Positions 15,158-57,085 of a stretch of DNA of 64,000 bases are shown here, in pieces. The notes under the pieces are model-generated. The model saw only the letters and a list, made by a program, of their open reading frames with translations, was not told the DNA's origin and searched no databases. The position numbers and the translations under genes are program-made. Source of the DNA: Pseudomonadota bacterium (lineage in GTDB: Bacteria > Pseudomonadota > Alphaproteobacteria > Rhizobiales > Pleomorphomonadaceae). Position 1 is the first letter of the stretch. Every line of letters starts with the position of its first letter. The stretch is from assembly GCA_018262575.1 (NCBI GenBank), contig JAGSYU010000027.1, forward strand, positions 1-64,000. The letters are read 5' to 3'.

Positions 15158-15460
15158 GCCAGTCGGTCGGACGACCGCGCGGACAGGGGGCGAAAGCCCG
15201 TCCGGGAGGAAAGTCCGGGCTCCACGAAAACACGGTGCCGGGTAACGCCCGGCGAGGGTGACCTTAGGGAAAGTGCCACAGAGATCGAACCGCCCCGGCG
15301 CGCCGGGGTAAGGGTGAAAAGGTGGTGCGGGCGTAAGCCCTGCCTGTTTTCGGGCTAGTCGTCCGGGTTGGTTGCATGAGGCGTCCGGCAACGGCCGTCC
15401 CAGATGAATGGTCGTCGGGCGGGAAACCGCTCACAGAACCCGGCTTACAGACCGACTGGC
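15158..15460 (+). ncRNA. rnpB: RNase P RNA (bacterial class A), apparently internally truncated
   Basis: P1 closure gccagtcggt/accgactggc; 'gggaggaaagtccgggctcc' (CR-I), 'gtgccacagaga', 'ggggtaagggtgaaa', 'cccagatgaatg' (CR-IV), 'cacagaacccggcttacag' (CR-V). Confidence 0.9.
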
Positions 15461-15730
15461 CTTTTCTGTCTGCGGCCCGCGCCACGGGGCAAAATGCGGC
15501 GCCTATGCCGCATCTGTTCACTATCAGTTGACAGTGTGTTGATGGCGCCAGGGAATGGCTTTCCTTGAAGCGACGGCTTGGCGAACCTATTCCTATATTC
15601 GCAATTCGGAGTAAGTACTTTTTGCAGGGGGTCGCCGTGTAGGAGTCTCGCCGGGTTGCGCTCAGCCACGCGCCCGTCACGTGGCGCTCGTCAACAGCAG
15701 GGCCATGGCCCTGGAAGGAACAAGTCTGAA

Positions 15731-16285
15731 ATGGCCAAGGTCGCAATCGTCTATCATTCGGGATACGGGCACACGGAAGTGGTGGCCAAGGAAGTCGCTA
15801 CCGGTGCCGGCGCCGAACTGATTCCCATTGATGCGGAAGGCAATGTTACCGACTCGGATTGGGCCAAGCTGGATGCGGCCGACGCGATCATCTTCGGCAC
15901 GCCGACCTACATGGGCAATTCCAGCTGGCAGTTCAAGAAATTCGCCGATGCCACGTCGAAGGCGTGGTTCACGCGCAAGTGGCAGGACAAGGTCTTCGGT
16001 GGCTTCACCAACTCCGCCAGCCTCAATGGCGACAAGCAGGTGACGCTGATCGGCCTGCAGACGCTTGCCTCCCAGCACGGTGGCATCTGGGTCAGCCTCG
16101 GCCTGCTGCCGTCCAACACCAAGGCGTCGACACGCAGTGACGTCAACAGCCTCGGCGGTTCCGTCGGGTTGTTGGTCTCGACGCCGTCGGACGCCAGCAC
16201 GGATGAAGTGCCGGCCGGCGATCTCGAGACAGCAAGGTCGTATGGTGCCCGCGTTGCGGCGGTGGCCGGCAAATTGTTGAACTGA
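15731..16285 (+). CDS. Flavodoxin family protein / WrbA-like NAD(P)H:quinone oxidoreductase
   Basis: 'KVAIVYHSGYGHTEVVAKEVATGAG', 'FGTPTYMGNSSWQFKKF', 'FTNSASLNGDKQVTL'. Confidence 0.9.
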   Translation: MAKVAIVYHSGYGHTEVVAKEVATGAGAELIPIDAEGNVTDSDWAKLDAADAIIFGTPTYMGNSSWQFKKFADATSKAWFTRKWQDKVFGGFTNSASLNGDKQVTLIGLQTLASQHGGIWVSLGLLPSNTKASTRSDVNSLGGSVGLLVSTPSDASTDEVPAGDLETARSYGARVAAVAGKLLN

Positions 16286-16349
16286 TCTGGGCCAAAACCC
16301 AAAGTTCTGGAAGCGGCGCCTCGAGAGGGGCGCCGTTTTCGTCTGCCTG

Positions 16350-17261
16350 TCAGGCCGGAGGCGGCATGCCGCCGTTTTCAAGAAAGACCTTGGCCGTCAG
16401 GAAGTCGCGCCACGCCTCGCGCTTTTTGATCGGCGTCCTCAACAGATAGGCCGGGTGGAACGTCGGCAGCGCCTTGAAGCGCTTGTTGCCGATCTCCAGG
16501 TCGCACCAATGGCCGCGCAGCTTGTTGATGCCCTGTTTCACCGCCTCACCGCCCAGCAGTGCCTTGGCCGGCTGCGCGCCGAGGAAGACGATCAACGCCG
16601 GATCGATCAGCTCGATCTGCCGCAGGATGAACGGCCGACAGATGGCGATCTCCACGTCGGAAGGGTCGCGGTTGCCCGGTGGCCGCCAGTAAATGACGTT
16701 GGCGATATAGGCGTTGTGGCTGCGGCTGTAGCCGATGGCGTTGAGCATGCGATCAAGCAACTGGCCGGAGCGGCCGACAAAGGGCCGTCCTTCGATGTCC
16801 TCGTCGCGGCCAGGGGCTTCGCCAATCAGCATCAGCTTAGATGCCGGATTGCCGTCGGCGAACACCGTGTTCTTGGCGGTGAGCTTGAGGTTGCAGCCAT
16901 CGAACGCCTGCAGCAGGTCCTTGAGTTCGTCGAGTGTCTTTGCCGATTGGGCGGCGGCGCGCGCCTGCATCACCGTCGCTTCAGTCGGCACCTGGGCCGT
17001 CTGGCCCGTTGCGACGACCGGGCGGGCCGGGGCTCCTTGCGAGGGGAACTCAACCGCCGGCATCGGGCGCCGGTCGTCCGGCTGGGGCGACTGCCGCCGG
17101 GCCGCCTGGCTTTCCGCCGCCGCTTTCGCCTTGGCGCTGTCATCGAAGCGATCGAACGGCCTATCGGCCAGCGTCACGTCGACGCCCATCGCCGCATACC
17201 AGTCGAGCAGGGCTGCGGCGGCCTCAAGGCCAGGGGAAGGGGATGTCGGATCGGACGGCAT
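16350..17261 (-). CDS. Uracil-DNA glycosylase (type 4/5-like)
   Basis: 'LMLIGEAPGRDEDIEGRPFVGRSGQLLDRMLNAIG', 'YIANVIYWRPPGNRDP', 'PTFHPAYLLR'. Confidence 0.93.
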   Translation of the reverse strand: MPSDPTSPSPGLEAAAALLDWYAAMGVDVTLADRPFDRFDDSAKAKAAAESQAARRQSPQPDDRRPMPAVEFPSQGAPARPVVATGQTAQVPTEATVMQARAAAQSAKTLDELKDLLQAFDGCNLKLTAKNTVFADGNPASKLMLIGEAPGRDEDIEGRPFVGRSGQLLDRMLNAIGYSRSHNAYIANVIYWRPPGNRDPSDVEIAICRPFILRQIELIDPALIVFLGAQPAKALLGGEAVKQGINKLRGHWCDLEIGNKRFKALPTFHPAYLLRTPIKKREAWRDFLTAKVFLENGGMPPPA

Positions 17262-21279: not shown

Positions 21280-23220
21280 TCAGCCTTCGATCTTCGAGAA
21301 GTCGGCGACCTGGTGGCAAGCGTTGCGCAGCACCGTCAGAAGAGCGAGACGATTGGCGCGTACTTGTTCGTCGGCGTCGTTGACCAGCACCTTGTCGAAG
21401 AAGGCATCGACCGGCGCGCGCAGCGTGGCAAGCGCCTTCATTGCCCCTTCGAAGTCCTCGGTGGCGACGGCGTCACGGACGGCCTTGGCGGCCGTCTCGA
21501 CGGCAGCGGCGAGCGCCTTCTCTTCGGCTTCCCTGAACAGCGAGGCGTCGACGGCGGCGGCGACGGCCGTGCCCTTTTTCTCCTCGGCCTTCAGGATGTT
21601 GGCGGCCCGCTTGTAGCCGGCGAGCAGGTTCCTGCCGTCGTCGCTGGCAAGCAGGGCACCGAGCGCCTCGACGCGCTTGACGATCAGCAGCAGGTCGTCC
21701 TGGCCACCGAGCGCGAACACCGCATCGACGAGATCGAAGCGGTTGCCCTGTTCGCGCAGCTGCACCTTCAGGCGATCGGCGAAGAAGTTGAGGAGGTCCG
21801 GCGTCTTGCTCGAATAGGCGTTGAGCGGCAGACGCACGCCATTGTCGAGGATGATCCGGATCACGCCCAGCGCGGCACGGCGCAGCGCAAACGGGTCCTT
21901 GCTGCCGGTCGGCTTCTCGTCGATTGCCCAGAAGCCGACGAGCGTGTCGAGCTTGTCGGCCAGCGCCACGGCGATCGACACCGGCGCCGTCGGCACGCGG
22001 TCGGACGGGCCTTGCGGCTTCCAGTGCTCCTCGATGGCGGCGGCCACAGCCGCATCCTCGCCGGCATGCGCCGCGTAATAGCGGCCCATCAGGCCCTGTA
22101 CCTCGGGGAACTCGCCGACCACGCCCGAAAGCAGATCCGCCTTGGCGAGCAGAGCGGCGCGGGCCGCCTTGTCGGGATCGGCGCCGACCAGCGGCGCGAT
22201 TCCGCGGGAGAGCGCCACGACGCGGCGGACGCGCTCGCCCTGGCTGCCGAGCTTTTCGTGGAAGGTGATGCCCTCGAGCTTGGGCACCAGCGTCTCCAAG
22301 GGAATGGCGAGGTCGCCGTCCCAGAAGAATTTGGCGTCCGACAGGCGGGCGCGGATAACGCGCTCGTTGCCGGCGATGATGGTGGCACCGCCATCGGTCG
22401 CCGCCATGTTGGAGGTCAGGATGAAGCGGTTGGCGAGGCGGCCACTCTTCGGGTCCCTCAGCACGAAGCACTTCTGATTGGCGCGGATGGTGGCGCGGAT
22501 CACCTCGTCGGGCACGTCGAGGAAGGCGGGATCGAAGGCGCCCATCAGCACGACAGGCCACTCGACAAGGCCGGCCACTTCATTGAGCAGCCCTTCGTCC
22601 TCGACCAGTTCGAGGCCGGCGGCGAAGGCGAGATTGCGGGCGTCGGCGAGGATGATGTCGCGCCGGCGGGCCGGATCGAGCACCACCTTGGCCTTCTCCA
22701 GCTTGTCAATGACGACCGGCTCCTCGGTTTCGGGACCGAAGGTGCAGACGATCGAGTGCAGCGGCCGCACCCAGCGCAGCGTGCCCGTGCCCCAGCGCTG
22801 CGACTTCGGCCAGGGGAAGCTGCGGATCACCGAGGGTAGCAGTTCGGCGATGATCGCCTCGGCGGCGCGGCCGGGCTTCACAAGGTCGGCGACGTAGAAG
22901 TCGCCCTTCTTCGGGTCGGAAACGACGCGCGCCTTGGCGATGTCGTCGAGCCCGGCGCCGCGCAGAAAGCCCTGGATGGCACCGGCCGGAGCGTCGGTGC
23001 GCGGCCCCTTCTTCTCCTCGCGGATGTCAGGCGAGCGGGTGGTGAGGCCGTGGACTGTCAGCGTGAGGCGGCGTGGCGTCGCAAAGGCACCGGCGCTCTC
23101 GTAGGTGAGGCCCGCATCGACCAGACCGTTTGTCACCAGACCCTTGAGATCGTCGGCGGCCTTCGCCTGCATACGGGCGGGAATCTCTTCGGAAAAGAGT
23201 TCGATGAGAAGATCGGGCAT
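21280..23220 (-). CDS. glyS: Glycine--tRNA ligase beta subunit (apparent internal in-frame loss)
   Basis: '[27 protein letters not shown]', '[21 protein letters not shown]', '[18 protein letters not shown]', C-terminal '[31 protein letters not shown]'. Confidence 0.95.
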
Positions 23221-33248: not shown

Positions 33249-33299
33249 TCAGTTAAGTATTTGAAATGACTTGATTTTGAGGGTGACGGACGATATCGA

Positions 33300-33410
33300 A
33301 CCCCCATCGGGGAGTAGCCACCGTCGCTTCAGACGGGATCGCGTCAACATGCTCGCACTCATTGCGTGGCGCGGTCAGCCGAAAGGTCCGGCAAGACCGT
33401 GGTGACGCCA
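33300..33410 (+). promoter_or_regulatory. yybP-ykoY family manganese riboswitch
   Basis: 'atcggggagtagccaccgtc', 'gcgtcaacatgctcgcac' and 'ccggcaagaccgtggtgacgc' match the GGGGAGUAG / GUCAACAUxCUCG / GCAAGACCG landmarks; directly upstream of mntP. Confidence 0.82.
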
Positions 33411-33465
33411 TCTTCGGGCGAGATGTGACGACGTCATCCGGTATTGCGCTCGACTGGTACTGCCG

Positions 33466-45338: not shown

Positions 45339-45346
45339 ACTCGGGC

Positions 45347-46629: not shown

Positions 46630-46656
46630 CCATGAGCGGGCGATATCCGCCTGTGC

Positions 46657-46896
46657 CTACAATCTTGGGTCTTCCGACGGCTTACGGCTGCGCAGCTCGC
46701 GCATGGCCTTCATCCGTGGCGCGATGCCGAGCGCGACGGGGACCGCGATGATGAAGGTGATGCCGACCACCCAGGGGATCAGTACATCGGCCTGCTCCTT
46801 CAACGGCGTCGCCAGCACGACGACCATGCCAATACCGAACAGGACGGCCTGAACCATCATGTAGATCAGCAGTGTGATCAGGATTTTCGTTCTCAT
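46657..46896 (-). CDS. Small two-TM membrane protein
   Basis: 'MRTKILITLLIYMMVQAVLFGIGMVVVLATPLKEQADVLIPWVVGITFIIAVPVALGIAPRMKAMRELRSRK'. Confidence 0.65.
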   Translation of the reverse strand: MRTKILITLLIYMMVQAVLFGIGMVVVLATPLKEQADVLIPWVVGITFIIAVPVALGIAPRMKAMRELRSRKPSEDPRL

Positions 46897-47062
46897 CGTC
46901 GTCTCCTCGAAGGTCTCCTCAAGCTTCAACGCACGGACCAGCCGTTTGGTTGCGCGTACTCTGCGAGGAAGCGAAGTGGCGACGGCCGAAAGTCTTCACT
47001 TATCCTGCGGGCCGGGTTCTGACAGCTCACCCTGCTGAGAATAAGTCCATGTATCTGATGTA

Positions 47063-48106
47063 TTACAGGTTCTCCGTGATCAAGACTTCGATCCGGATCT
47101 TCTCCTGAGAGGCGAGAATTTCGCGCCGATCCCGACGGGCTCTGAGGATGCGTATGGCACTGCGCACCAAATGACCGGGGTCCTGGGTAATTAGGGCGTC
47201 GACCTGATGGGAGCGCAAGGCAGCCTCCGTGAAGGGGGTGCGCTCGTGAGCGATGATCACCGGCTTGTCCTTGGCGAAAACCTCGGTGACCACCTCAAGG
47301 GGGACGCGCGCCTCGGAACTGACGATGTAGACACCGGCGATACTGTGCTGGCTGGAAAAGCTGTTGCGGATGATGCGCGCCGTGCGCTCGGCGTCGCCGT
47401 AGGTTTCCAGGGATGGCAGCACCGTCAGATGCGGGTAGTCGATATTGATGATCTCATCGAAGCCCAGTCGCCGCTCGAGGCTGTCGCGGGCAAGCATCGT
47501 CTCGGCGATGATCAGGATGGTTCCGGCCGAGCGCTCCAGAAAGCGACCCATCAGCCGTCCCGCCGTGGCCCCGGCGGCATGGTTGTCGATGCCGACAAAA
47601 TCGTCGTGGTCGCTGGTGATCTGCCCGGCGATGAAACTGACCGTATCGATGCCTTTCTCGATCAGCCGAGCCTTGGCATCGCGCACCTGGGGCGATTCAG
47701 GCGCCATGATGGCCACGCCGTCCACCTGATCCAGATCGAGCGAGCCGAGCGCGTGGGCGATTTGGTGCGGATCGCTTTCATGGATGTGCATGACATCGGC
47801 GTGGACCATCTCCGCCGCGAAGATCTGATTGGCCTCGTCGATGCGCGCGATCAATCCGGCAAGAAACGCGTCGCCGGTTCGCGGCAGCAAGAACAGGAAG
47901 CGATAGCTTTTCCCCCGGGCCAGGTTTGCCGCGACCACGTTGCGAATGAACCCAAGCTTTTGAATGGCTTGGTTCACTTTGGCAATGGTGTCCTGGCGCA
48001 CGCCGGGCCGGTCGTTCAGGACCCTGTCCACCGTTGCGAGGCTCACCCCCGCCTCGATCGCCAAATCCTTTGTTGTCGGTCGCATCTGAGGTCCCGCTGT
48101 GTTCAT
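47063..48106 (-). CDS. LacI-family transcriptional regulator
   Basis: 'TTKDLAIEAGVSLATVDRVLNDRPGVRQDTIAKVNQAIQKLGF', then a periplasmic-binding-like domain; start could also be 48085. Confidence 0.94.
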   Translation of the reverse strand: MNTAGPQMRPTTKDLAIEAGVSLATVDRVLNDRPGVRQDTIAKVNQAIQKLGFIRNVVAANLARGKSYRFLFLLPRTGDAFLAGLIARIDEANQIFAAEMVHADVMHIHESDPHQIAHALGSLDLDQVDGVAIMAPESPQVRDAKARLIEKGIDTVSFIAGQITSDHDDFVGIDNHAAGATAGRLMGRFLERSAGTILIIAETMLARDSLERRLGFDEIINIDYPHLTVLPSLETYGDAERTARIIRNSFSSQHSIAGVYIVSSEARVPLEVVTEVFAKDKPVIIAHERTPFTEAALRSHQVDALITQDPGHLVRSAIRILRARRDRREILASQEKIRIEVLITENL

Positions 48107-48149
48107 TTGTTTCTTTTCATTGAAATTTCGGTCGAACGCAACCGATTTG

Positions 48150-48191
48150 AGGCACGTACCTAAAAATGAGCTTGCCATGAAGTACGTACCT
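48150..48191. promoter_or_regulatory. Tandem LacI-type operator pair
   Basis: aggcacgtacct (48150-48161) and aagtacgtacct (48180-48191), both near the palindrome AGGTACGTACCT, centres 30 bp apart. Confidence 0.65.
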
Positions 48192-48260
48192 CAAGTATGG
48201 TCTTTCCCGTAAGCGCTATGGCGAGGAGGCCATCGCTTGCAATCGGGGAGGACCAACCAC

Positions 48261-49592
48261 ATGAACGCGAAACAGATGTTGACGCCGGCCTTGCTGGCCG
48301 CCGCGGTAACCGTCGCCATGGGCACCGGCGCGGCGCAGGCCACGGACCTGACGCTGTGCTGGGCGGCCTGGGATCCGGCCAATGCGCTGGTAGAGCTCAG
48401 CAAGGAATACGAGGCCCAGTCTGGCAACACCATGCATTTCGAATTCGTGCCGTGGACCAGCTTTGCCGACCGCATGTTGAACGAGCTGAATTCGGGCGGC
48501 AAACTGTGCGACCTGATGATCGGCGACAGCCAGTGGATCGGTGGCGCCGCGGAAAACGGCCAGTATATCAAGCTCAACGACTTCTTCGACGCCAACAAGA
48601 TCAAGATGGACGACTTCATCCCGGCGACGGTGGTGGGGTATTCCGAATGGCCCAAGAACACGCCGAACTATTGGGCGCTTCCCGCCTTCGGCGATGTGGT
48701 CGGCTGGACCTATCGCAAGGACTGGTTCGCACGTCCGGAACTGAAGGCCGAGTTCACGGCGAAATACGGCCATGACCTGGCCGCGCCGGCCACTTTCGAC
48801 GAACTGAAGCAGATCGCCGAATTCTTCCAGAACCGCGACATCGACGGCAAGAAAGTTTATGGCGCATCGATCTATACCGAGCGCGGCTCTGAAGGCATCA
48901 CCATGGGCGCCATGGATGTCCTCTATAGCTATGGCTTCAAATACGACAACCCGGACAAGCCGTACGACATGGAAGGCTTTGTGAACTCCGCCAATGCGAT
49001 CAAGGGGCTGGAGTTTTACAAGTCGCTCTACGATTGCTGCGTGCCGCCGGGGTCATCGAATGGCTACATGACCGAAGGCGTGGACGCCTTCAAGTCGGGC
49101 CAGGTTGCCATGCAGATGAACTTCGCCTTCACCTGGCCGGGCTTCAACACCGATGCCAACGTCGGCGGTGACCGCACCGGCTATTTCGCCAATCCGGCCG
49201 GACCGAATGGCGACAAGTTCGCGCAGCTCGGCGGGCAGGGCATTTCGGTTGTCGCGGCCTCGGACAAGCAGGATGCGGCGCTGTCTTACATCAAGTGGTT
49301 CGCACAACCCGCCGTGCAGGCCAAGTGGTGGAAACTGGGTGGTTATTCGGCGCTCCGCGCCGTGGTGGAAGACCCTGGCTTTGCCACCAGCCAGCCCTAT
49401 GCCCAGACCTTCCTGGACAGCATGGCGATCGTGAAAGACTTCTGGGCAGAACCCAGCTACGCGACATTGCTGCAATCCTCGCAAAAGTGGTTCCACGACT
49501 ACGTGGTGGCCGGCAACGGTACCGCAAAGCAAGCCCTCGACGGCCTGGTCGCCGATTGGCACGCCACCTTCGAGGAAGAAGGCAAGTACTGA
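48261..49592 (+). CDS. ABC transporter substrate-binding protein (SBP_bac_1, sugar/polyol)
   Basis: Signal peptide; 'DLTLCWAAWDPANALVELSKEYEAQSGNTMHFEFVPWTSFADRMLNELNSGGK'. Confidence 0.94.
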   Translation: MNAKQMLTPALLAAAVTVAMGTGAAQATDLTLCWAAWDPANALVELSKEYEAQSGNTMHFEFVPWTSFADRMLNELNSGGKLCDLMIGDSQWIGGAAENGQYIKLNDFFDANKIKMDDFIPATVVGYSEWPKNTPNYWALPAFGDVVGWTYRKDWFARPELKAEFTAKYGHDLAAPATFDELKQIAEFFQNRDIDGKKVYGASIYTERGSEGITMGAMDVLYSYGFKYDNPDKPYDMEGFVNSANAIKGLEFYKSLYDCCVPPGSSNGYMTEGVDAFKSGQVAMQMNFAFTWPGFNTDANVGGDRTGYFANPAGPNGDKFAQLGGQGISVVAASDKQDAALSYIKWFAQPAVQAKWWKLGGYSALRAVVEDPGFATSQPYAQTFLDSMAIVKDFWAEPSYATLLQSSQKWFHDYVVAGNGTAKQALDGLVADWHATFEEEGKY

Positions 49593-49699
49593 CCTCATTG
49601 CCACCCGCCCCGGACAGGCAGCGGGTGGCATGTCCACGAGGCTTGTGCGGCCCGGATCGAGTCCGCACCGATGGCTCGCCGCTCCAGGAAAGCAAAACC

Positions 49700-50647
49700 A
49701 TGTCTGATCATCTCGCTCAACGCGTCGCGTCAGCCACGCCACCCAAACTTGCGCGCCGAATCCGGGGTGTTTCTGACAGGACAATCGCCTGGCTGTTCGT
49801 GACGCCGACCATTTTGCTGCTGCTGGCGGTGAATATCTTTCCGCTGATCTGGACGATCCGCCTGAGCCTGACGAATTTCCGTACCAATCGACCGAATAAC
49901 CCGGTCGAGTTCGTCGGTATCGAGAACTACCGCAAGATCCTGACCAATCCCGATACCTGGGCATCCTTGCAAGCGACCGCCCACTTCCTGATCTGGACCA
50001 TCGTGCTGCAGGTCGTGATCGGCTTTACGCTGGCCTATCTCATCAACAAGAAGTTCCGCGGCAACGATCTTTGGACCACGCTGATCGTGCTGCCGATGAT
50101 GCTGTCGCCCGCGGTCGTCGGCAACTTCTGGACCTTCCTGTATCAGCCACAGATCGGATTGTTCAATTATTTCATAGAGTTCATATCCGGTGTCGACCCC
50201 GCCAGCTTCTCCATGATCGGTGACGTCTCCCTGGCACCGTGGACCATCGTCCTCGTCGACACCTGGATGTGGACGCCTTTCGTGATGCTGATCTGCCTGG
50301 CCGGCCTCAGGTCCATTCCTCCCAGCATCTACGAAGCCGCCGAATGCGATCGCGCCAGCAAGTGGCGGCAGTTCTGGACCATCACGCTGCCGATGGCGCT
50401 GCCCTTTTTGATGCTGGCCGTGCTGTTCCGGGGAATCGAAAACTTCAAGATGTTCGATCTCGTGGTGCAGCTCACCGGCGGCGGCCCCGGCGCCACGACC
50501 CTGCTGACGTCGATCGATCTCAAGCGCGAAGCCTTCGAGAAATGGCGCACCGGCTTTGCCTCGGCCTACGCGGTGATCCTGTTCGTGACCGTGTTCGGTC
50601 TGGCCTCGATTTACGTCAAGGCGCTCAACAAGGTGAAAGACAGATGA
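49700..50647 (+). CDS. Sugar/polyol ABC transporter permease (MalF-like)
   Basis: 'AWLFVTPTILLLLAVNIFPLIWTIRLSLTNF', 'YEAAECDRASKWRQFWTITLPMALPFLMLAVLFR'. Confidence 0.93.
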   Translation: MSDHLAQRVASATPPKLARRIRGVSDRTIAWLFVTPTILLLLAVNIFPLIWTIRLSLTNFRTNRPNNPVEFVGIENYRKILTNPDTWASLQATAHFLIWTIVLQVVIGFTLAYLINKKFRGNDLWTTLIVLPMMLSPAVVGNFWTFLYQPQIGLFNYFIEFISGVDPASFSMIGDVSLAPWTIVLVDTWMWTPFVMLICLAGLRSIPPSIYEAAECDRASKWRQFWTITLPMALPFLMLAVLFRGIENFKMFDLVVQLTGGGPGATTLLTSIDLKREAFEKWRTGFASAYAVILFVTVFGLASIYVKALNKVKDR

Positions 50648-51582
50648 GCTACTCCATCACCGAGCCGTCAAGCCGCCAGAAGTGGTTCGCAGGAATTCTG
50701 GTTATTGGCTACGCGCTGCTGACCTTGCTGCCGCTGGCCTGGATCATCGCCACCGGCTTCAAGACGCCGACTGACGCCATCGCCTATCCGCCGAAGGTGG
50801 TGTTCAGCCCGTCGCTGGAGGGATACGTCAACCTGTTCACCTCGCGCAGCCGGGTGACGCCGGAGGATCTGGCCGCGCTGGGACCGCCGACCACCTGGTA
50901 CGACGCCATCGTCCGCCAGTATGACATGGTCATCAATGGCCCCTCGCGCTATGGCGAGCGGTTCATGAACTCGGTGATCATCGGCTTTGGCTCGACCTTC
51001 CTGTCGGTGTTTCTCGGCACGATCGCCGCCTATGCGTTCAGCCGCTTCAAGGTGCCGCTCAAGGACGATCTGCTGTTCTTCATCCTGTCGACCCGGATGA
51101 TGCCGCCCATTGCCGTCGCCATCCCGATCTTTCTGATGTACCGGCAGCTGGGACTGAGTGACACCCACCTCGGGATGATCCTGCTCTACACCGCCGTGAA
51201 CCTGTCGCTGTCGGTCTGGCTGTTGAAGGGGTTCATCGACGAAATCCCCATCGAATACGAAGAGGCGGCGCTAATCGACGGCTACACGCGCTTCCAGGCC
51301 TTCTACAAGGTCGTGCTGCCGCAGGCCGCCACCGGCATCGCCTCCACGGCCATCTTCTGCCTGATCTTCTCGTGGAACGAATATGCCTTCGCGGTGCTCC
51401 TGACCTCGGGCACGGCGCAAACCGCGCCGCCGTTCATACCCACCATCATTGGTTCCGGTGGCAAGGACTGGCCCGCCGTGGCCGCTGGCGCCACGCTGTT
51501 CCTGTTGCCGATCATGATCTTCACCATCTTGCTCCGCAAACACCTGCTGCGCGGCATCACGTTCGGAGCGGTTCGCAAATGA
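50644..51582 (+). CDS. Sugar/polyol ABC transporter permease (MalG-like)
   Basis: 'YEEAALIDGYTRFQAFYKVVLPQAATGIASTAIFCLIFSWNEYAFAV'; overlaps the previous gene. Confidence 0.93.
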   Translation: MSYSITEPSSRQKWFAGILVIGYALLTLLPLAWIIATGFKTPTDAIAYPPKVVFSPSLEGYVNLFTSRSRVTPEDLAALGPPTTWYDAIVRQYDMVINGPSRYGERFMNSVIIGFGSTFLSVFLGTIAAYAFSRFKVPLKDDLLFFILSTRMMPPIAVAIPIFLMYRQLGLSDTHLGMILLYTAVNLSLSVWLLKGFIDEIPIEYEEAALIDGYTRFQAFYKVVLPQAATGIASTAIFCLIFSWNEYAFAVLLTSGTAQTAPPFIPTIIGSGGKDWPAVAAGATLFLLPIMIFTILLRKHLLRGITFGAVRK

Positions 51583-51767
51583 ACAACTTCATCTATGGCC
51601 TGCTGCACCTGCGCCGAGGGGCCTGGGAGATGGTCGCCACCGTATTGATCGCTCTGGGCGTCGTCATGCTGATGCAGCCGCTGGCGCTGGTGCTGTTCAC
51701 CTATTCCTTCCTGGTGACGCTGATCGGAACGGTCATGTTCATCATCGTCAGCCATTTTCCGGAGTAA
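51579..51767 (+). CDS. Small (62 aa) two-TM protein of the ABC operon
   Basis: ATGA overlap with the upstream permease and 3 nt before the ATPase; 'MVATVLIALGVVMLMQPLALVLFTYSFLVTLIGTVMFIIV'. Confidence 0.75.
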   Translation: MNNFIYGLLHLRRGAWEMVATVLIALGVVMLMQPLALVLFTYSFLVTLIGTVMFIIVSHFPE

Positions 51768-51770
51768 ACG

Positions 51771-52865
51771 ATGGCACAGATCGTCATCAAGAACCTACGC
51801 AAGGAATTTGGCGCCTTCACAGCCGTGCAATCCTCCAGCTTTACCATCGAAAGCGGCGAGTTCTTCATGCTGCTGGGACCGTCGGGCTGCGGCAAGACGA
51901 CCACGCTGCGGATGATCGCCGGGCTGGAGCTGCCAACGGCGGGCGAGATCTATATCAACGGCATCGAAGTCAGCCAGAAGCCGGCCTCCAAGCGCGATAT
52001 CGCTTTCGTCTTTCAGATGTTCGCCCTCTATCCGCATATGAACGTGCGCAAGAACATCTCCTATCCGCTGGTCAGCCAGGGCATGCCGCGCGACCAGGTG
52101 CGCGCCAAGGTCGAGGAGGTCGCCGAGATCCTGGGCATCACTGGGTTGCTGGACAAGCCGGTCGGCGGGCTGTCCGGCGGCGACCGGCAGCGCGTGGCGC
52201 TCGGGCGAGCCGTGGTTCGCGATCCGGCCTGCTTTCTCATGGACGAGCCGCTGGGCGCGCTGGACGCCGAGTTCCGCGAGCACATGGCGCAGGAGTTGCG
52301 CGCCTTGCACGACCGGATGCACGCCACCACGGTCTATGTGACGCATGACCAGCTCGAGGCCATGCAGATGGGCGACAAGATCGTGGTGATGAACCACGGC
52401 GTCGTCGAGCAGTTCGGCCGCCCGCAGGACATCTACGACTGGCCGGCCACCACCTTCGTGGCAAAGTTCATCGGCTCGCCGGCAATGAACCTGCTGCCTT
52501 TCGACGGCATGGTGGGAAACGGCGCGACCTCGGTCACGCTGGCGGGCACTGAGGTACACATACCCAGGATGATCAGCGGCGACGACGGCGGGCTGGTCCT
52601 GGGCGTGCGGCCCGAGCACGTTCATCTGGACGATGATGCAGGATATCGCGGACGCATCATGGCGGTCGAGTATCTGGGCACCACGCAGATCGTCACGCTG
52701 GATACTGCGCTTGGGCAGGTCAAGGTCCGCGTTGGTTCGGACAAGGTCGCAACCGTTGGCGACACCGTGGGGCTCAGGTTCGATGCCCGCTCGATCTCGC
52801 TATTTGCAGCCAATGGCCATGCGTTGATCTCAACGGCCAATCAAAAGGTACTGAACCATGGCTGA
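51771..52865 (+). CDS. ABC transporter ATP-binding protein (MalK/UgpC-like)
   Basis: Walker A 'GPSGCGKTTTLR', signature 'LSGGDRQRVALGRA', Walker B 'CFLMDEPLGALDAEF', C-terminal TOBE. Confidence 0.95.
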   Translation: MAQIVIKNLRKEFGAFTAVQSSSFTIESGEFFMLLGPSGCGKTTTLRMIAGLELPTAGEIYINGIEVSQKPASKRDIAFVFQMFALYPHMNVRKNISYPLVSQGMPRDQVRAKVEEVAEILGITGLLDKPVGGLSGGDRQRVALGRAVVRDPACFLMDEPLGALDAEFREHMAQELRALHDRMHATTVYVTHDQLEAMQMGDKIVVMNHGVVEQFGRPQDIYDWPATTFVAKFIGSPAMNLLPFDGMVGNGATSVTLAGTEVHIPRMISGDDGGLVLGVRPEHVHLDDDAGYRGRIMAVEYLGTTQIVTLDTALGQVKVRVGSDKVATVGDTVGLRFDARSISLFAANGHALISTANQKVLNHG

Positions 52866-53822
52866 AGTCCTTTTGAAAAATGTCTCGAAGTCCTTCGGTC
52901 GGCAGACGGCCCTTGCCGAGGTTTCCCTGACGATTCCCGATGGCTCCTTCGTGGTGCTGCTGGGACCGACCGGCGCGGGAAAAACCACGCTGCTGCGCAT
53001 GGTTTCGGGATTGGACAAGCCCTGTGACGGCGAGGTGTTCATCGCGGGACGCTCCATGCAGGGCCTGCCGCCCGCGCAGCGCAACGTGGCGATGGTGTTC
53101 CAGCAATATTCGCTCTACCCGCATCTGACCGTGCGCGAGAACATGGAGTTTCCGCTCAAGTCGCCGCTGCTGCGGACGCCCAAGGCTGACATGGACCGCA
53201 AGGTGACAAGCTCGACAACAAGGCGACGGCCCTGTCCGGTGGCGAGATGCAGCGGGTTTCCATTGGCCGCGCGCTGGTCCGCAGTCCGTCGGTCTACCTG
53301 ATGGACGAGCCGCTGTCGTCGCTGGACGCCAAGCTGCGCGCCGATCTGCGCATCGAACTCAAGAACATCCAGGCCAATCTGGGCGCCACGTTTCTTTACG
53401 TCACCCACGACCAGATCGAGGCGATGACCATGGCCACCCACGTCGGTGTCCTCGATCACGGCCGGCTGGTGCAATTCGGTACGCCGCGCCAGATCTACGA
53501 GCAACCCGTCAGCATCTACGCCGCCGGACGCCTGGGCCAGCCGCACATCAACATCCTGCCGGCCGACCTGTTCGGACCGGCTCCCTACGGTGCGGCCTTT
53601 ATCGGCATGCGCCCCGAGCAGATCCAGCAAGGCGAAGGGCAGGACAGCCTGGTCAAGCGGGTCGAGCATCTGGGGGACCAGACCCGCCTGCATCTGGCGT
53701 TCAAGAGCCACGATCTGACAACGGTCATCGATGCCCACACGCCGCTGCGCGCGGGCGACATCGTGAAAATTCAACCGCTGAGGCCGTTCTATTTCGATGC
53801 CGCCGGCGCCCGTATCGTCTGA
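52858..53822 (+). pseudogene. Second ABC ATP-binding protein (MalK/UgpC-like), frameshifted near 53203-53208
   Basis: Frame 1 runs to 'KADMDRKV'; the reading continues in another frame as 'KLDNKATALSGGEMQRVSIGRALVRSPSVYLMDEPLSSLDAKLRAD...'; about 11 residues missing at the junction. Confidence 0.85.
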
Positions 53823-53832
53823 GGAGGACACC

Positions 53833-55449
53833 ATGACGCAATTCATGAACAAGCGCGAAAACATCGTCACCGAGGCGATCGAAGGGGTCGTGATGGCCTC
53901 CGGCGGGCGTCTGGTGCGGCTGGACGGCTTTCCGCATATCCGCGTCGTGATGCGCGCCGATTGGAACAAGGGCCGGGTGGCGATCGTCTCCGGCGGCGGT
54001 TCGGGGCACGAGCCGGCACATGTCGGCTTTGTCGGCCCCGGCATGCTGACAGCGGCGGTGTGCGGCGATGTGTTCGCCTCGCCGTCGGTCGATGCGGTGC
54101 TGGCCGGGATTCTGGCGGCTACCGGGCCGGCGGGCTGCCTGCTGGTGGTCAAGAACTATACCGGCGACCGGCTGAACTTCGGCCTGGCCGCCGAACGGGC
54201 CCGCGCCTTCGGCCTCAAGGTGAACATGGTCATCGTCGACGATGACATTGCCTTGCCGCACCTGCCGCAATCGCGCGGACTTGCCGGCACGCTGTTCGTG
54301 CACAAGGTGGCCGGTGATCTGGCCGAAAAGGGCAGCGATCTCGCGACCGTCACCGCCGCCGCCGAACGGATCATCGCCGGCACCCGGTCGATCGGCATGT
54401 CGCTCGATACCTGCACCGTGCCCGGCTCGGCCAAGGAAAGCCGCATCGCTCAAGGCAAGGCTGAATTGGGTCTTGGCATCCACGGCGAACCGGGCGTGGA
54501 GCAGATCGACTTTGTCGATGCCGAGCAGGCGATGGCGGCGATGATCGACAAACTGGCGGCCCAGGCGGACGACAGGGACTATGTCGCTCTGCTCAATAAT
54601 CTCGGCGGCGCCTCGGTGCTGGAAATGTCGGTGCTGGCCTACGAATTGTTGCGCTCCGAACTGGGCCGGAAGATCAAGTTCATTGTCGGGCCGGCCGCCA
54701 TGATGACGTCGCTCGACATGCGGGGCGCTTCGGTGTCGATCTATCCCCTGACCTCAGGCGATGGGGTGTCGCTATGCAGCCCTGTGGCCATGTCGGCGTG
54801 GCCGGGCTGCCATCGGATCATCTCCCCCGTCGCCCTGGCGCTGCCTGACGGCCTGACGCCCATTCGTCCGATTCCCTCACAGCACCGGGCAACGCGCGAT
54901 TTCCTCCTAAAGTGCTGCAACATCATGATTTCGCTTGAATCTGAACTGAACGCGCTGGACGCGAAATCAGGAGATGGCGATACCGGGTCCACCCTTGCCG
55001 GCGCGGCAAAGGCCTTGATCGGAGCGCTGGATCACCTGCCGCTCGCCGACCATACGCAGCTCTATCGGGCGATCGGACTCGAGTTCAGCCAAACGATGGG
55101 CGGGTCGTCGGGCGTGCTGCTGGCAATCTTCTTTGCGGCGGCCGGCGACGCGGCATCCAGTGGATTGACCATGCGCGATGCGCTGATGGCCGGGCTGGCC
55201 CGCATGCAGGAAATCGGCGGGGCAAGGCCGGGCGACCGGACCATGATCGACGCCCTTCACCCGGCGCTTTCAGCCCTCAACGACGGTATCGCCGCGGCAG
55301 CGGCGGCGGCCCGCAAGGGCGCCGATCACACCGCAACCATGAGTGTCGCCAAGGCCGGCCGCGCCGCCTACGTGAGCGCCGAAAAGCTGAGCGGTCACGT
55401 CGACCCCGGCGCAGAAGCCGTTGCGCAATTGTTCGAGGCGCTCGTCTAG
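53833..55449 (+). CDS. Dihydroxyacetone kinase, fused DhaK-DhaL
   Basis: 'VSGGGSGHEPAHVGFVGPGMLTAAVCGDVFASPSVDAVLAGI', 'LNNLGGASVLEMSVLAYEL' (DhaK); 'LDAKSGDGDTGSTLAGAAKAL...MGGSSGVLLAIFFAAAG...GDRTMIDALHPAL' (DhaL). Confidence 0.95.
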   Translation: MTQFMNKRENIVTEAIEGVVMASGGRLVRLDGFPHIRVVMRADWNKGRVAIVSGGGSGHEPAHVGFVGPGMLTAAVCGDVFASPSVDAVLAGILAATGPAGCLLVVKNYTGDRLNFGLAAERARAFGLKVNMVIVDDDIALPHLPQSRGLAGTLFVHKVAGDLAEKGSDLATVTAAAERIIAGTRSIGMSLDTCTVPGSAKESRIAQGKAELGLGIHGEPGVEQIDFVDAEQAMAAMIDKLAAQADDRDYVALLNNLGGASVLEMSVLAYELLRSELGRKIKFIVGPAAMMTSLDMRGASVSIYPLTSGDGVSLCSPVAMSAWPGCHRIISPVALALPDGLTPIRPIPSQHRATRDFLLKCCNIMISLESELNALDAKSGDGDTGSTLAGAAKALIGALDHLPLADHTQLYRAIGLEFSQTMGGSSGVLLAIFFAAAGDAASSGLTMRDALMAGLARMQEIGGARPGDRTMIDALHPALSALNDGIAAAAAAARKGADHTATMSVAKAGRAAYVSAEKLSGHVDPGAEAVAQLFEALV

Positions 55450-55550
55450 AGCACATCTGGCGAACTCAGGTTCGCCGACGTGCTCTATCCTTTTGTTTCC
55501 ACGTAACTCCGGACGCAAAACCGGTTCCCACTTTTGCTGGAGTTGCTCTG
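55448..55550. repeat. Rhizobiales-type composite palindromic repeat
   Basis: agagcac-atct-ggcgaac-tcag-gttcgcc-gac-gtgctct, then gcaaaaccggttcccacttttgc...gttgctct. Confidence 0.75.
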
Positions 55551-55605
55551 GCGCACAGGCCGATCTCCAAAGCCAGGAGCGCCGCATAAAGCGGCCCACA
55601 TCTGT

Positions 55606-56679
55606 TCACGCAGGCAAGGCCGCTTCCGTGGCGCGCAGGCTCTGGCGCTTGAGGCGCAGGCTTGGCTTTTCGATCAGCACCCACGAAAGCCACGCGGCAA
55701 GAGTGGCACCGCCGACCGTAGCCAGCAGGCTGATGGCCGATCCCGTCCAATTGAGGCTGACCAGAATGTTCAGCACCAGCCCGTGATAGATGTAGACGCC
55801 GTAGGAAATGTCGTTGCCGCGCAGCAGTCGGCTGGACAGCGACGGCAAGGTATAGGCGAGCGACACCACGGCAATGGCCAGCATCATCAGCGACAGGTAA
55901 TCGCCGATGGCGCCCGCCGGCTTGAGATTGACGACGGCGATATAGGCGGCAAGCCAGAGCACGCCCTTTCCCCGCAAGAACCGATGCACGACCGCGATGT
56001 GCCTTTGCAGCAGCGTTCCGGCCAGGAACATGTAGAAATGCGTGAAAAAGGCGTACTTCAGGAGTTTGGCAACCCTCGTTTCCTCAGACGTCAGCATGTC
56101 GGGGAAGAGATGGTTGATGCAGATGCCGACCAGGGAAAACAGCACGAATGCTGCCAGTAGAACCGCATCAAGGCTGATTTTCGACCGGCGAGCCAGCCAA
56201 TACAGGACCGGCAGGACGAAATAGAACTGGATCTCGACAGGGATCGTCCACAGACTGCCGTTATACGAGCCGAAGCCGAAATCCTTGAGGAACCCCGGCG
56301 TGTAGATGAGCGCGCCAAGCTGCGCCACGTACCAGGCAAGGCCGGCGGGATGCAGGAAGCTGAAGCCGAACAGGGACGCCACGAGCACGGTTATGCTGAT
56401 GCATGCCCAGAGGCCGGGAAAGATCCGCAGGGCGCGATTGCGAAAATACGAGCCGATGCCGCTGCTGCGCTCATACGAGGCGGAAATCAGAAATCCCGAG
56501 ATGACAAAGAACACCGGGACGCCGCGAAAGTGCCACAGGCTGTCGGCCCAGGCCGGAAAGGCGAGGCCGAGATGGGCCTTCGCGTGAAAAATCAGAACCT
56601 CGGTGGCTGCCATAAGGCGCAACAGGTCGAAATTGTTCAGGCGGAAATCGTCTCTGGCTGAAAGGCTACCGGTCATCAA
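55606..56679 (-). CDS. Acyltransferase family 3 (OafA/YrhL-like)
   Basis: 'NNFDLLRLMAATEVLIFHAKAHLG...FRGVPVFFVISGFLISASYERS...RNRALRIFPGLW'. Confidence 0.92.
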   Translation of the reverse strand: MMTGSLSARDDFRLNNFDLLRLMAATEVLIFHAKAHLGLAFPAWADSLWHFRGVPVFFVISGFLISASYERSSGIGSYFRNRALRIFPGLWACISITVLVASLFGFSFLHPAGLAWYVAQLGALIYTPGFLKDFGFGSYNGSLWTIPVEIQFYFVLPVLYWLARRSKISLDAVLLAAFVLFSLVGICINHLFPDMLTSEETRVAKLLKYAFFTHFYMFLAGTLLQRHIAVVHRFLRGKGVLWLAAYIAVVNLKPAGAIGDYLSLMMLAIAVVSLAYTLPSLSSRLLRGNDISYGVYIYHGLVLNILVSLNWTGSAISLLATVGGATLAAWLSWVLIEKPSLRLKRQSLRATEAALPA

Positions 56680-57000
56680 TGGGTACTTCGACTTGTGGTT
56701 TCGTGCGTCCCGTCAGTTGCAGGGACGAGCGGGGCTGATCCTGTGTGCTGGCGCGCCCTGGCTTCCGAGGCGTCTTCTCTCTCGGAGCACACCCCGCAGA
56801 GGGCATCCTCAGCACATTCGATAGCCTCAATACGGAAGTTGAGAGGATAGTTGAAGTCCGTATGGCAAGAAAATAATAGAATTTATCGTAAAAAACAAAG
56901 ATCGCGATAAAGTAAAAAAGAAATATGACAAGCATATAAGTTGTTTGCGGTCTTCCGCAAAGGAAGGCGTCTGAATTTATTCGTGCTGTCAGGTATAAAA

Positions 57001-57085
57001 TGGTGGGAGAAGTAGGACTCGAACCTACGAAGGCTTAGCCAGCGGATTTACAGTCCGCCCCCTTTGCCACTCGGGACATTCTCCC
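57001..57085 (-). tRNA. tRNA-Tyr (GTA)
   Basis: gggagaa...cggactGTAaatccgc...long variable arm...ggttcgagtcctacttctcccaCCA. Confidence 0.96.

Follow-up and report, generated by a model that had tools for sequence, protein, structure and literature searches.

The class A RNase P RNA gene (rnpB) located at 15158-15463 on the forward strand of the window, the whole 64,000-nt stretch of Pleomorphomonadaceae DNA that was analyzed, carries an internal deletion of 76 nt. RNase P, whose RNA component this gene specifies, is an essential enzyme of tRNA processing. The deletion is confirmed in the sequence itself, and comparable blunt losses in further genes of the genome indicate that the loss of the rnpB core is very probably a local assembly error in the draft. 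The draft genome totals 4.40 Mb over 295 contigs and is 86.3% complete, so that ~14% may be unassembled; the contig number and the completeness suggest that it is a MAG.

The gene was recognized with the Rfam model RF00010, for which a match at 15159-15463 (305 nt, 182.1 bits, E 1.5e-58) was obtained over model positions 1-367, above the gathering score of 100 and with a large gap inside the model alignment. This is the sole RF00010 match of the whole draft genome. Elsewhere in the window, a yybP-ykoY manganese riboswitch was matched at 33297-33460 (RF00080, 48.5 bits, barely over the cut-off). The retained parts of rnpB and the position of the junction are as follows.

15206-15216, forward strand: CR-I, the 5' strand of P4; intact (sequence, RF00010 alignment)
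15278-15284, forward strand: CR-II (ACAGAGA); intact (sequence, congener alignment)
15308-15319, forward strand: CR-III (GGTAAGGGTGAAA block); intact (sequence, congener alignment)
15327-15328, forward strand: deletion junction, with 1-nt ambiguity (MAFFT, BLAST, Rfam alignment of congener L042)
15328-15375, forward strand: what remains of P16/P17/L15/P15 3', including L15 GGGTTGG (congener alignment)
15433-15447, forward strand: CR-V, the 3' strand of P4 (ACAGAACCCGGCTTA); intact (sequence, Rfam alignment)

The P4 helix, made up of CR-I and CR-V, is thus present in the window gene, and the specificity-domain blocks CR-II and CR-III are kept as in the congeners. On the 3' side of the junction follow the P17 hairpin (GCCTG-TTTT-CGGGC), the 3' strand of P16 (GTCGTCC), and L15. 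Outside the gap, the gene is mostly 91-97% identical to its congeners. The Rfam alignment with congener L042 assigns to the lost 76 nt the 3' part of P13, P14, the 3' strands of P11, P10, P7 and P5, J5/15 (CR-IV), the 5' strand of P15, and most of that of P16. Neither CR-IV nor closed P5, P7, P10/P11 and P15/P16 helices were found by alignment and motif search, and the J5/15 motif GCAAGACCGAATAGG has no match with up to 4 substitutions within 15158-15463. The first-pass annotation, which had described intact P1 closure, CR-I and CR-V, and had reported J5/15, P14, and the 3' strands of P10, P7 and P5 as missing, is borne out by these alignments and the motif search. The internal deletion that it expected in an RF00010 alignment appears as the large gap, in which P5, P7 and J5/15 are not aligned in full. 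The loss itself is real in the sequence, while its estimated size of ~80-110 nt has to be corrected to 76 nt by alignment. One assignment needs revision: the lost conserved region is CR-IV, and the CR-III label given to J5/15 is wrong, CR-III being intact. The label is wrong because J5/15, which we assign to CR-IV, belongs to the catalytic domain and not to the specificity domain. The catalytic domain holds CR-I, CR-IV and CR-V, and the specificity domain holds CR-II and CR-III (PMC4919922).

Relatives of the organism were searched with the same model, and rnpB was detected in 58 of 60 of them and in 237 of 242 members of the class. The 12 congeners with a match possess a single copy each, of 379-381 nt and 286-303 bits; these sister genes, whose inspection the first-pass annotation had suggested, are all intact. 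MAFFT alignment shows one clean gap in the window gene relative to the congeners, and BLAST comparison with five congeners places the missing 76 nt at 15327 every time. When the set was extended to the 12 congeners and 8 further relatives, the same single clean internal deletion was observed, with 76 nt in every pairwise congener comparison. The deletion is private to the window genome and absent from related genomes, as would be the case for an assembly error. J5/15 was found by its motif in 54 of 55 other loci examined, and in the remaining locus (L203) it is visible in the Rfam alignment. The deleted copy stands at the syntenic site. Downstream of it, a segment of ~0.9 kb at 15466-16354, including a wrbA-like gene, is absent in congener G004, where rnpB directly adjoins a uracil-DNA glycosylase-like gene.

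The window gene shares P1, P2, P3, P4 (CR-I/CR-V), P8, P9, P12, CR-II, CR-III, P17, L15 GGU and P18 with the RF00010-type rnpB of Pleomorphomonas, and an RnpA gene is present in the window genome too; the difference lies in the 76-nt core. Naturally short class A RNAs of 286-331 nt occur in alphaproteobacteria such as G297 and G116. Like the window gene, they are below 340 nt with reduced P12/P13/P14; unlike it, they have both J5/15 and the P5, P7, P10 and P11 3' strands. The RNA of G297, at 286 nt the shortest among the complete ones followed up, keeps GAGCAAGACAAAACA along with these strands. The archaeal type P/T RNA of Pyrobaculum is also far shorter than usual, but it has lost the specificity domain and kept the catalytic domain (PMC4919922), whereas the loss in the window gene crosses the catalytic core and leaves parts of the specificity domain in place.

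The RNA as drawn should be essentially inactive and unable to support life. This prediction is based on the simultaneous absence of the P5/P7 inter-domain connection, the contact of A248 in J5/15, and a closed P15-P16. A248 is well conserved and adjoins the 5' end of the tRNA (PMC10465520), and it sits in the region of J5/15. Deletion of P15-17 from full-length E. coli RNA lowers the catalytic efficiency almost 50,000-fold, as cited in PMC5839562, and a loss of activity is predicted here on that ground; such published deletions are in accord with the expectation of the first-pass annotation that this copy would be non-functional as drawn. The 305-nt RNA is predicted to fold stably (z -5.05), which has little bearing on its native fold.

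Clean losses of the same kind occur in other genes of the genome. The one in glyS, a second deletion private to the window genome, emerged from the syntenic comparison. The other two came from a sample of the genome, made up of 454 kb outside the window and 518 kb with it, that was compared with 1.32 Mb of congener G012; 209 kb aligned.

21280-23220, reverse strand: the single glyS of the genome (glycyl-tRNA synthetase beta), 99 nt missing in frame at 22705-22707 (syntenic comparison)
52858-53822, forward strand: sugar-type ABC transporter ATPase, blunt 31-nt deletion at 53206, frameshifted and split in two frames (alignment to G012)
L118:1428-2744 (G000:C60 near 42031), reverse strand: tryptophanase/tyrosine phenol-lyase-like gene (beta-eliminating lyase), 75 nt missing in frame

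The 99 nt of glyS are kept in all congeners compared (G012, G013, G004, G005), and the Pfam match of the window gene skips positions 166-200 of PF02092; the conserved core GHRFL region is gone. The lyase and the ABC transporter ATPase were compared with a single congener (G012). The loss in the lyase, which is on another contig, includes the SAKKD segment, which we take to be the normal site of the PLP lysine. The ABC transporter ATPase lies in a block of ~10.4 kb (46630-57000, with an ABC sugar transporter and a dihydroxyacetone-kinase-like gene) that is largely present in G012 and missing at the site in G004; the block ends at a tRNA gene (57004-57085, reverse strand) and is island-like. The blunt joins of 99, 75 and 31 nt are what an assembly error in rnpB would be expected to have for company. 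When the comparison is reversed, most indels of the congeners relative to the window fall within variable or non-coding sequence; events between congeners are mostly intergenic.

Homology at the junctions of the deletions examined amounts to 0-1 nt, with no direct repeats, and slippage between direct repeats was rejected since the homology is at most 1 nt. The deleted segments are highly conserved among the congeners, with 94.7% identity for rnpB and 95.5% for glyS against a median of 84%, and they rank in the top 2% and the top 0.6% of windows of the syntenic region, respectively; these percentiles concern two segments only and are post hoc. For essential genes to lose their best-conserved segments would be the opposite of what selection allows; read post hoc from these two segments, the pattern fits an assembler that fails on sequence shared with related organisms. 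A tendency of the assembler to drop repeats in general was also considered. A 121-nt dispersed repeat, intergenic in the congeners (for example G012:C1:4171306-4171426; another copy is at G000:C241:9275-9395), is lacking at 45340 and 53822 of the window; its absence is not diagnostic because genomes of the genus carry anywhere between 0 and 40 copies, with three in the window genome. Neither the window nor 474 kb of the genome contains any Ns, which is compatible with their removal after scaffolding without proving it.

We consider it most likely that the RNase P RNA of this Pleomorphomonas-group species of Rhizobiales is an ordinary class A RNA of ~381 nt, whose most conserved core would have been stripped of 76 nt in assembly, the flanks being joined without the intervening segment. 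The loss would have arisen in the assembly and not in the cell, and may be tied to stretches in common with related organisms of that sample. This is the best reading because the draft, in 295 contigs and 86% complete, shows two lethal lesions, in rnpB and glyS, at a distance of 7.4 kb, and the blunt losses seen elsewhere in the genome favor an error over a new enzyme. Uncurated MAGs are known to carry local assembly errors, 13 of which were described in one 1.13-Mb MAG (PMC7111523), and this experience makes the implied rate of error plausible. Such errors are unsupported joins within genes, several per genome (PMC7111523), as the joins described here probably are. Two observations count against an assembly error: no exact repeat ends coinciding with the deletion ends are identifiable, and the glyS and lyase deletions both keep the frame, for which the chance is ~1 in 9.

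An alternative is that the deletion is real but confined to some cells or to a degenerate second copy, with an intact rnpB present in the unassembled 14% or in most of the population. The incomplete state of the draft leaves room for such a copy, and two relatives (G042 and G221) gave two rnpB matches each, for which draft contamination is a possible cause. Within the assembly, however, the RF00010 profile search revealed no second rnpB, the 31-nt core of the missing segment has no match elsewhere when up to 3 mismatches are allowed, and the full 76-nt segment has no match anywhere. A split gene or a second rnpB in the assembly was rejected on these searches, and the second copy proposed in the first-pass annotation finds no copy or fragment with the missing piece there; among its three options, a segment dropped by the assembly is the best supported in view of the other blunt deletions. 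All 12 matching congeners have a single rnpB, and the damaged copy occupies the syntenic site. As the sole glyS is damaged likewise, this alternative would call for more than one independent duplicate in intact form, and we regard an intact rnpB outside the assembly as unlikely.

A fixed, genuine deletion is far less probable still. It would demand an RNase P RNA that works in the absence of J5/15 and of the P5/P7/P15 closure, or a split RNase P RNA whose core module is supplied in trans by an unassembled second RNA. The good preservation of the rest of the RNA (182 bits, P1 and P4 intact), the presence of RnpA, and the stable predicted fold, a weak guide to the native one, are in line with function. 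The missing segment is nowhere in the assembly, J5/15 is present in all other loci checked, and removal of P15-17 alone already carries the almost 50,000-fold cost cited in PMC5839562. No short-spaced rnpB was detected with a strict pattern in 85,462 species genomes; this zero has weak power because the normal-spacing control, run with a tighter pattern, gave only 3. Least probable of all, to the point of being largely refuted, is the use of a protein-only RNase P with rnpB in decay. Nothing beyond the deletion itself speaks for it, and a search of the genome for the protein-only HARP (TIGR03875) gave no match, while RnpA is retained and the rest of rnpB keeps its high identity to the congeners.

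Under the assembly-error reading, the biological importance of the deletion is probably none. The case serves as a warning that in uncurated drafts short and highly conserved parts of essential genes can go missing with no Ns to mark the gap, and where a core is missing in one genome, read support and the other genes of the assembly should be checked first. If the deletion were real, the indispensability of CR-IV in RNase P would be overturned.
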